This document shows, piece after piece, positions 1 to 36,396 of a DNA stretch of 36,937 nt (position 1 is the stretch's first letter; each line of letters starts with the position of its first letter). A model generated the notes under the pieces. The model had not been told where the DNA came from. It saw only the letters and a program-made list of their open reading frames with translations, and made no database searches. The DNA is taken from the NCBI GenBank assembly GCA_021163645.1, contig JAGGTN010000002.1:1-36937 (forward strand), written 5' to 3'. The DNA comes from Microcaldota archaeon (GTDB lineage: Archaea > Micrarchaeota > Micrarchaeia > Anstonellales > JAGGTN01). The translations under genes were made by a program, and so were the position numbers.

Positions 1-105
1 CCTACCGAGTATCACTAATAGAACGGCGATTACTATAACAATAACTAATAACGCCCATCCATAAGTCATTAAATATTCCATTGCGGCTTGACCTTTTCTT
101 TCCAT
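1..105 (-). CDS. Class III signal-peptide pilin-like protein (5' part; runs off window edge)
   Basis: Reverse complement reads MERKGQAAMEYLMTYGWALLVIVIVIAVLLVIL..., a typical archaeal KGQ-A-EY prepilin N-terminus; not in ORF track because truncated. Confidence 0.85.
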   Translation of the reverse strand, partial: MERKGQAAMEYLMTYGWALLVIVIVIAVLLVILGR

Positions 106-163
106 TTTATCACCTTATTCATCATTTAAATCATTCATTAATCGATAAGCGGACCCGGAGGGA

Positions 164-200
164 TTTTCGTTATATCTGTCTTTGACATTTCAAATCTTAT
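164..200 (-). other. tRNA-Arg intron 2 in the T-loop (59/60)
   Basis: Central helix TTCG/CGAA, bulges AAA and AAT; cleavage AA|A and AA|T restores TTCGAAT between GAGGG and CCCTC; distal helix is weak. Confidence 0.82.
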
Positions 201-222
201 TTCGAACCCTCGACCTACTGCT

Positions 223-249
223 TCCCTCTATATTATGATCCATAGTCAT
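223..249 (-). other. tRNA-Arg intron 1 at canonical 37/38 site
   Basis: BHB-like: central helix CTTC/GAGG flanked by bulges TAA and GAA; cleavage TA|A and GA|A. Confidence 0.85.
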
Positions 250-559
250 TAGAAGGCAGCCGCTCTATCCAAGCTGAGCTACGGGCCCACATCAGATTAT
301 ATCAAACTCATATCATATAATCTTAATGATATAATTCAATAAACTTTTTAATATATATTGCTTGCTATTCTGATATTTTAAGGTGTGAGACCCCTTACTT
401 CCACTATTCTAAGTAATTTTTAATATATTAATTTAATTATTTTGTTTTAAATTTTTCTTTTTTTATCCTCTTTTTTATCCATAACAATTATTTTCTTTTG
501 TTTATTTATCAATACATGTTTACTCATTAATGTCAATTCTCATCAACACAAATTGGTTT

Positions 560-10887: not shown

Positions 10888-10998
10888 CTTATTAAGTATC
10901 TACTACTTTCTTTTTATCATATCTATTTTTAATGATATGTAGAAAATATCTTACTTTCCTTATTTCATTGAATGTTTTACGAATGCGAGCTTATGAAT

Positions 10999-11219
10999 AA
11001 CCAACCCAACCCAATCAAACCAACCAAACCCAAACAAACCAACTCAACCCAACCCCCCAAAAACCAAAAACCAACCAAAACAAAAACTCAACCCCAAAAA
11101 CCAAATCCAACAAAAACAACCCAATTAACCCAATCCCGATCATCAAATCAACCACCCCAAACAAAAAGAACAAAACAATCAAACCAACCAACCCCAACCC
11201 CCAACCAATCACCAACCCC
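10999..11219 (+). repeat. A/C-rich strand-asymmetric low-complexity tract 1
   Basis: CCAACCCAACCCAATCAAACCAACC...; almost no G on plus strand. Confidence 0.9.
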
Positions 11220-11418
11220 TAATATGCTCATAAATTTAAATTCGTATAATATGTTGGTTTTACTGAATAAAGGTTGAAAGGATCTTAATGTTAACTAAGA
11301 TTAGTTTTATTAAGTTAGTTAAGATAATTAATAGATCAAACAATTCAACAGAACCAGAATCTTAGCAAACGCTTAAAGCATTATCTATGTTTTTAAATAT
11401 TGTCCTCATAATAAGTTT

Positions 11419-18465: not shown

Positions 18466-18620
18466 GGGCCTGTGGTCTAGTGGTTATGACGTCCGCCTTA
18501 CACGCGGGAGATCCCCGGTTCAAAATAGCTTTTTGGTGTTGTAATATATTCTCTCAAATATTAGCACTCAAAAATAATAGTAATGAAAAAGAAGAGGCTA
18601 TGGAAGTCCGGGCAGGCCCA
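18466..18620 (+). tRNA. tRNA-Val(TAC) with T-loop intron (59/60)
   Basis: Acceptor GGGCCTG/CAGGCCC + A73; GTCTAGTGGTTATGAC; anticodon stem TCCGC/GCGGG with CTTACAC loop; T-stem CCCGG/CCGGG; T-loop TTCAAA|T. Confidence 0.9.
18525..18606 (+). other. 82-nt BHB intron in T-loop of tRNA-Val
   Basis: Central helix TTCA/TGGA, bulges AAA and AGT, distal helix TAGCTTTTT/AAGAGGCTA; splicing yields TTCAAAT T-loop. Confidence 0.88.
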
Positions 18621-21022: not shown

Positions 21023-21189
21023 AGTTTTGTTGTCATATGAATAAATTCTCTATACTTCTTTATTTTTCTGGTATTGTGGTGATTATTAAGTGTTTGACGG
21101 GTTCATTTGCGTTTATTCCTTATGTGTATTAAGTATAAAAATAGCTATGAACCGAGTGTTCGTATTATTCATTAACTTGATTAACTTAA

Positions 21190-21299
21190 TAACCAACCAG
21201 TCACCAACCCCCCAAAAAACAACCAACCAATCAAACAAAAAAATCAAAACCAAACCCCAACCCAACCAATCAAACAAATAAAAATCAGACAAACAAGGA
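21190..21299 (+). repeat. A/C-rich tract 2 with conserved tail
   Basis: AACCAACCAATCAAACAAAAAAATCAAAACCAAACCCCAACCCAA identical to tract 4; tail ATAAAAATCAGACAAACAAGGA. Confidence 0.88.
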
Positions 21300-21433
21300 A
21301 AAAATATTACGTAAAAATAACACTATCATTAATTCTTATGTTAATTTAGCTGTTGAAATGATACTGTAAATGATAATTCATATATGGCAATCTCCATTAC
21401 TGGTTGAAATATTTGCTGTATGTTTTAAACAAA

Positions 21434-25069: not shown

Positions 25070-25383
25070 CTTTCCAAGCCAAACCCACCACCCCCAAAAA
25101 CCAAACCCCAAACAAATAAAACTAATCATCACCAACCAATCATCCAACCCAAAAAAAATAATCCAATCCAAATCAAACCAAACCAACCCAATCCAAATCA
25201 AACCCACCACCCCAAACCAATCATCACCAACCCAATCAATAAAAAAAGAACCATCCCAAAAACCAACCAACCAAAACCCAAAATCAACCCCAAAAACCAA
25301 CCAATCAAACAACCCAACCACCCCAACCACCCCAAAAAACAAATAAAACCAACCAAAATCAGGCAAACAAGGATAGAACATAA
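25070..25383 (+). repeat. A/C-rich tract 3 with conserved tail
   Basis: About 310 bp nearly G-free on plus strand; tail AAAATCAGGCAAACAAGGATAGAACATAA. Confidence 0.9.
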
Positions 25384-32818: not shown

Positions 32819-32990
32819 TCAACAATCCAACACCAAACCAAACCATCCCAAAAACCAACCAATCAAACAAAAAAATCAAAACCAAACCCCAACCCAAAGA
32901 CCAACCCCAACTCAACCACCCCAAAAAAAGCCCAAAATCACCCAAAAAAATCAAACAGATAAAAATCAGGCAAACAAGGATAGAACATAA
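32819..32990 (+). repeat. A/C-rich tract 4 with conserved tail
   Basis: 45 bp identical to tract 2 and tail ATAAAAATCAGGCAAACAAGGATAGAACATAA matching tract 3. Confidence 0.9.
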
Positions 32991-35682: not shown

Positions 35683-36396
35683 CTAATGTTTTAATCTCAA
35701 CAACAGAAATAAATGATCCTTTTCATAAGGTTCTAATCTTATCCTCTGAATTATCTTAAATTTATTAGATAATATGTTTTCAACTTTATCATAAACCTTC
35801 TCTGGTTTTTCAGTAACATCAATACTTTGAGATTTAATTGCAATCATAGCATATCCTCTCTTCTTAAGATATACATCAGCATTTTTAATGAGAATCTCAG
35901 CTTGGTCTGGCTGGGCTACATCTTCATAGATTACATCTACCTTTCCATTAATATATTTGGAATAACTCTCTGGTTTTCGTGCATCTGCCATAATCGGAAT
36001 CATATTCTTCCTTATTTTACAGACAGGTATTAGTTTTGCCATCATTTGTGCTGAGAATTCTATGCAGTATACTACCCCTTTTGGCCCAATAATATCAGAT
36101 ACATGTGATGATGTCGTACCAGTTGATGCTCCTAAATAAAGCACACTGCTACCTCTTTTAATAGGCAACTGTTTAAGATTATTCTTTATGGCTGCGGATA
36201 ATTTACTCCTGTACGGAGTCCATGATCTATAATCAACCTTATCATACGAGAATATCTTTTCATTATATACTTTATATCCTTTAACGAGACTCGGTGTAAC
36301 TATCCTACCTCCAAGAAGATAAACATTATCAAATATCTTTTTTGGTGCTCCCAGTTCGTTTTCTTTCTTTTTTTTATTTTTATCTCTGTGTTTCAT
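35683..36396 (-). CDS. flpA: Fibrillarin-like rRNA/tRNA 2'-O-methyltransferase
   Basis: YRSWTPYRSKLSAAI, VLYLGASTGTTSSHVSDIIGPKGVVYCIEFS, VDVIYEDVAQPDQAEIL. Confidence 0.96.
   Translation of the reverse strand: MKHRDKNKKKKENELGAPKKIFDNVYLLGGRIVTPSLVKGYKVYNEKIFSYDKVDYRSWTPYRSKLSAAIKNNLKQLPIKRGSSVLYLGASTGTTSSHVSDIIGPKGVVYCIEFSAQMMAKLIPVCKIRKNMIPIMADARKPESYSKYINGKVDVIYEDVAQPDQAEILIKNADVYLKKRGYAMIAIKSQSIDVTEKPEKVYDKVENILSNKFKIIQRIRLEPYEKDHLFLLLRLKH

Follow-up and report, generated by a model that had tools for sequence, protein, structure and literature searches.

The window, by which we mean the whole stretch of 36,937 nucleotides that was analysed, is one contig of an 895-kb assembly, a MAG that is 88.6% complete. 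Its host belongs to the Micrarchaeota, as shown by the relatives found through its endonuclease, which carry that title; the DPANN character suspected in a preliminary description of this DNA is thus borne out. Close to the beginning of the window, on the minus strand, lies a tRNA-Arg(UCU) gene interrupted by two introns, one at the canonical site in the anticodon loop and one inside the T-loop, and a second interrupted tRNA gene, for tRNA-Val(UAC), is found farther along on the plus strand (Table 1). The neighbours of tRNA-Arg(UCU) encode a KaiC-like ATPase and T2SSE and T2SSF proteins, and nothing among them bears on tRNA. A link between this tRNA and the pilus genes was considered and set aside: as far as the evidence goes, their proximity is a coincidence of neighbourhood. 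A truncated class III signal-peptide pilin (MERKGQAAMEYLMTYGWALLV..) occupies window positions 1-105 on the same strand, its start lying 45 nt downstream of the tRNA gene.

Table 1. Coordinates of the two interrupted tRNA genes in the window, with their exons and introns.
Feature	Position in window	Strand	Description
tRNA-Arg(UCU), whole gene	288..150	-	139 nt including two introns
tRNA-Arg(UCU), exon 1	250..288	-	Acceptor 5' strand, D arm, anticodon stem 5' strand and loop to A37; basis includes intronless orthologues
tRNA-Arg(UCU), anticodon TCT	253..251	-	Within exon 1
tRNA-Arg(UCU), intron 1	223..249	-	27 nt, canonical site 37/38, after A37; ATGACTATGGATCATAATATAGAGGGA
tRNA-Arg(UCU), exon 2	201..222	-	A38, anticodon stem 3' strand, variable loop, T-stem 5' strand, T-loop TTCGAA (54-59)
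tRNA-Arg(UCU), intron 2	164..200	-	37 nt, non-canonical site 59/60, after A59; ATAAGATTTGAAATGTCAAAGACAGATATAACGAAAA
tRNA-Arg(UCU), exon 3	150..163	-	T60, T-stem 3' strand, acceptor 3' strand, discriminator G73; CCA not encoded
tRNA-Val(UAC), exon 1	18466..18524	+	To A59; scan score 40.7, with no further high score in the window besides this one and that of tRNA-Arg(UCU)
tRNA-Val(UAC), intron	18525..18606	+	82 nt, site 59/60; 3' end TATGGAAG
tRNA-Val(UAC), exon 2	18607..18620	+	Completes the second interrupted tRNA of the window (18466-18620)

With both introns removed, an intron-aware cloverleaf scan recovers the stems of the tRNA (acceptor GGGCCCG/CGGGTCC, D arm, anticodon stem GCTGC/GCAGT and T-stem GAGGG/CCCTC), together with the anticodon loop CTTCTAA and a G as discriminator, and ARAGORN reads the spliced 75-mer as tRNA-Arg(tct). 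The preliminary description had placed a tRNA-Arg(TCT) at exactly this position, with 27 nt to be removed after A37 and 37 nt after A59, and these two results agree with it to the base. It had also predicted that standard annotation would overlook the gene, which is what we observed. ARAGORN makes no tRNA call on the unspliced gene or on the whole window, no Rfam model, ribozymes included, matches the window at the gathering score, and a permissive genome-wide Rfam search yields only a truncated 15-bit match for tRNA-Arg(UCU). A group I or other catalogued catalytic intron was rejected on the basis of the same gathering-score search of the window, in which ribozyme models found no match.

The evidence assembled from the sequence makes it very probable that this is a functional tRNA-Arg(UCU) gene of the Micrarchaeota host, the only one found, and that its transcript is spliced. 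A second, intact Arg(TCT) gene had been named beforehand as an observation that would count against such a role; the search was carried out with a 5'-end pattern allowing 3 mismatches and with an anticodon-arm pattern, and neither found another copy in this 88.6%-complete genome. When introns are allowed, ARAGORN wrongly labels the Ala(GGC) gene Arg(tct), a call that could be mistaken for a second copy. Across the 19 long ORFs of the window, AGA and AGG account for 248 of the 307 arginine codons (81%), and tRNA-Arg(UCU) should therefore be needed. The main alternative is a decaying pseudogene, in which an insertion struck the T-loop and splicing has been lost. It would fit the invisibility of the gene to standard tools, but we consider it very unlikely: the acceptor, D, anticodon and T stems all pair, the anticodon is undamaged, the searches brought up no further Arg(TCT) gene in spite of the codon usage just described, and 15 other genes, of different isotypes, have an intron at this position of the T-loop with the same core pairs.

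A chance assembly of exons and introns, produced by permissive gap placement in AT-rich DNA, deserves consideration in that two variable gaps inflate cloverleaf scores. The same scan applied to 20 first-order Markov versions of the whole window gave maxima between 27.4 and 34.8; the score of 42.4 obtained for tRNA-Arg(UCU), however, exceeds all of them, and chance is refuted by orthologues in which the same exon sequence is present without gaps, leaving this explanation a negligible probability. These orthologues, collected with the anticodon-arm pattern over 84 genomes of the same order, include five intronless genes from five genomes (L072, L074, L075, L076 and L081), where the exons are contiguous and 65-69 of 75 positions are identical to our spliced sequence. 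Introns are absent from the orthologues of family f8 (e.g. L074, L075, L076 and L081) and of genome G010. Two further orthologues (L054 and L055) carry the 37/38 intron alone and two others (L100 and L102, genomes G025 and G028) the 59/60 intron alone, so that all four are the same gene with the same splice sites, there used singly. The combination of 37/38 and 59/60 occurs in none of the orthologues fully resolved by the scan; outside that set, L060 and L064 appear by eye to have both introns plus an interruption of the D arm. Given orthologues with none, one or the other, the gene can be described as conserved, with introns that are optional additions at set positions. Split or permuted tRNA genes, whose pieces are transcribed separately, do occur in archaea with broad-specificity endonucleases (PMC3218864), but a gene of that kind is practically out of the question here, being refuted by the contiguity of three exons that lie in order within 139 bases of one strand, and countered also by the exon-intron core pairs at both junctions.

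At junction 37/38, CUUC (tRNA positions 32-35; window 255..252) pairs with GAGG (228..225) near the end of intron 1, with one G-U pair, and at junction 59/60, UUCG (54-57; 206..203) pairs with CGAA (169..166) near the end of intron 2. In folds of the isolated arms the mean pair probabilities are 0.98 for the 37/38 helix and 0.73 for the 59/60 helix, values equalled by shuffled introns in 0.3% and 1.3% of cases, respectively. The minimum-energy fold at 37/38 lengthens the helix over U36-A37, so that a strict 3-nt bulge on the 5' side is not favoured in the isolated arm, and the 5' side of the 59/60 junction folds as a 2x2 internal loop. The modelled folds confirm the two central helices given in the preliminary description (CTTC/GAGG and TTCG/CGAA); on the 5' side, the 3-nt bulges that it assigned to both junctions are not the form favoured by the isolated arms. 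Both junctions are predicted to adopt a bulge-helix-bulge (BHB) structure or its relaxed form, the one at 37/38 being relaxed rather than strict. Some splice points are ambiguous by 1-2 nt owing to repeated A residues.

The genome encodes one PF01974 protein, an endonuclease of 422 aa. Residues 32-422 align to positions 13-387 of the ARMAN-2 enzyme (4fz2/9w2k; E = 6e-119), its closest solved structure, and the alignment columns for Y236, H251, K282 and the loop residue Lys161 are identical to those of ARMAN-2; the roles of the catalytic Tyr-His-Lys and of Lys161 in the ARMAN-specific loop have been described previously (PMC6379350). By homology, we identify this protein as an epsilon2-type splicing endonuclease, a type characterised as a three-unit fusion of about 390 aa with high similarity to ARMAN-2 EndA. 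Published work reports that epsilon2 endonucleases can cut non-canonical introns located at a variety of positions in tRNAs (PMC4033280, PMC12397907). The genome also codes for an RtcB ligase (E = 1e-147), whose gene is split over contig ends. With these components, the 139-nt precursor would be transcribed and would form a relaxed or canonical BHB at each junction from the 5' exon end (CUUC 32-35; UUCG 54-57) and the 3' end of the intron (GAGG; CGAA); the homodimeric epsilon2-type endonuclease would then cut inside the bulges, and RtcB would presumably join the exons. In genus g18 of family f8 (G018, G035 and others), two genomes give no PF01974 match and three more give short, divergent ones, and the tRNAs of G018 look almost uninterrupted. 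A joint loss of introns and endonuclease in g18 is possible, and would fit published ideas on their co-evolution.

The preliminary description had regarded a doubly interrupted tRNA as unusual in this setting, a view that the rest of the genome does not sustain. Our census recovered 31 tRNA genes containing 43 introns (1.39 per gene), with 30 of the 31 genes interrupted; it is a lower bound, as it covers stretches around search hits only, spliced by script or by hand. The sole uninterrupted gene is a tRNA-Met(CAT) on contig 50. Site 37/38 holds 21 of the 43 introns and site 59/60 holds 16, the remainder falling at 56/57 (two), 53/54 (one) and in the D-loop (three). ARAGORN assigns the expected isotype to all 30 genes spliced by script, and Gly(TCC), which has C33, was added by hand. 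The anticodon loops of Gln(UUG) at L114 and Gly(UCC) at L020 apparently have C33 rather than U33. Multi-intron tRNAs, moreover, have already been listed, together with an epsilon2 endonuclease, for ARMAN-1 and ARMAN-2, the latter being Candidatus Micrarchaeum acidiphilum (PMC4033280, PMC6379350, PMC12397907).

The intensive use of site 59/60 may have a structural origin. The near-universal T-loop sequence UUCR (54-57) could supply one strand of the 4-bp core helix, making 59/60 a ready-made splice site at which an intron would need only to end in about YGAAAA to complete the helix. That the T-loop already gives half of the splice helix would explain why this site is used in 16 of the 31 tRNA genes, and its favoured use thereby receives a simple reason. 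All four core pairs are present in 12 of the 16 introns at 59/60, with a mean of 3.75 pairs, compared with 1.69 at positions inside the same introns. Across the 84 genomes of the order, a pattern for introns at this site (GGTTCRAA..GARAATCC) is found at about 50 places in 32 genomes, versus 3 places for the reversed-pattern control; of 45 loci that were inspected, about half proved to be tRNAs.

Comparison with known systems places tRNA-Arg(UCU) in an already published type of gene, here within an unusually disrupted genome. Site 59/60 itself is present in the published list of non-canonical intron sites (PMC4090602). As in the Thermoproteales (Pyrobaculum and relatives; PMC4090602, PMC8450103, PMC4033280), canonical 37/38 introns coexist with non-canonical ones, 59/60 included, at BHB-type junctions, and similar introns are found in different tRNAs of one genome. 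Thermoproteales average 0.84 introns per gene, and in P. calidifontis 46 genes together contain 71 introns (PMC8450103). In contrast to that group, the host here is a member of the Micrarchaeota, its endonuclease is of the epsilon2 and not the (alpha-beta)2 type, and the single site 59/60 carries an intron in about half of the tRNA genes recovered. ARMAN-1 and ARMAN-2 share with it the phylum, the enzyme type and the multi-intron tRNAs, but they represent a different Micrarchaeota lineage.

The case of tRNA-Arg(UCU) illustrates how annotation can under-count tRNAs in Micrarchaeota. With the Rfam tRNA model, only 10 matches are obtained here, compared with 31 genes from the intron-aware search; across the order the model gives between 1 and 44 per genome, which suggests heavy disruption beyond this genome. 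Given such figures, tRNA counts may mislead when they are taken as a signal of completeness.

Several introns of the genome resemble one another closely. At 59/60, Lys(CTT) and Arg(CCT) have a near-identical intron of about 230 nt in common, and at 37/38 the introns of Ala(TGC) and Arg(TCG) are likewise near-identical. The tRNA-Thr(GGU) gene at L163 (G000:C35, about 35700-36000) contains three introns (D-loop, 37/38 and 56/57), of which those at 37/38 and 56/57 are near-identical copies of 71-74 nt. Near-identical introns in different tRNA genes are the criterion by which intron transposition is recognised in Thermoproteales, and in this respect the genome as a whole qualifies; the two introns of tRNA-Arg(UCU) do not, neither being among the 40 best intron pairs.

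A motif that opens several of the introns recurs in this genome, at 24 places versus 3 control places. It belongs to a hairpin element of the form N1N2A-C-UUUUU-[variable stem-loop]-AAAAA-CC-U N2'N1'-ACUAAA, and related genomes show the same frame with quite different hairpin stems. The pattern has 75 distinct matches, of which 3 were considered to be chance; the N1 pair is present in 71 of the 75 and the N2 pair in 72, the corresponding maxima in shuffles being 58 and 52. Fully paired ends are of eight different types (GC/GC, GG/CC, TG/CA, GA/TC, AC/GT, CG/CG, CC/GG and AG/CT), a diversity that indicates covariation. Matches were found in 17 of the 301 genomes of the phylum, spread over several Micrarchaeota families, with few hits for the reversed-pattern control. 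For four loci, no relevant Rfam match was obtained at E <= 0.5. The element is absent from the window, including both introns of tRNA-Arg(UCU).

The element stands at the 5' end of introns (D-loop, 37/38, 56/57 and 59/60) and directly after the 3' ends of mature tRNAs, and further copies are arranged in tandem at L243 or occupy intergenic DNA; its loci include L049, L146, L162, L205-L217, L220-L223, L227, L236, L238, L241, L249 and L258-L291. We put forward tentatively, as quite possible though somewhat short of probable, the reading that this hairpin element has not been described before, that it invades RNA genes, and that some introns of this genome and of several Micrarchaeota families are copies of it; the element would then be a candidate source of BHB introns that is itself mobile. 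Within tRNA and rRNA it would be tolerated only at places from which the endonuclease can remove it (the D-loop, 37/38, 56/57, 59/60 and a site in 16S rRNA) or immediately past the 3' end of a tRNA. The two near-identical introns of tRNA-Thr(GGU) are part of the evidence for this reading. If the element is mobile, the gain of archaeal tRNA introns becomes testable wherever the same element is found in or beside tRNAs, in 16S rRNA and in intergenic DNA. Copies outside tRNAs were preceded by a stop codon in 6 of 29 cases, where about 8% would be expected, a tendency too weak to be retained.

At L250, around position 1500 (G274:C47), inspection by eye places the element inside a 16S rRNA gene (GTGGCGAAA..GCGCTTGGCTAAAACACG), where the insert is apparently a small BHB-type rRNA intron. 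The present genome also contains about 11 dispersed intergenic copies of an element of about 150 nt that shares this hairpin core and is bounded by imperfect inverted repeats at its termini (ATATTGAAACGG / CCGTTCAATA), located at L152, L153, L158, L159, L161, L165, L166, L168-L170 and L136. At L142, a putative C-terminal zinc ribbon fragment of an IS200/IS605 TnpB ends beside tRNA-Ala(CGC), on its upstream side. Finally, AC-rich and almost G-free intergenic tracts, all on the plus strand, occur in the window at 10981-11220, 21181-21300, 25081-25380 and 32821-32980, where they create spurious ORFs (e.g. 10972-11277); on contig 23, a tract of this kind is also contained in the long introns that Lys(CTT) and Arg(CCT) have at 59/60.
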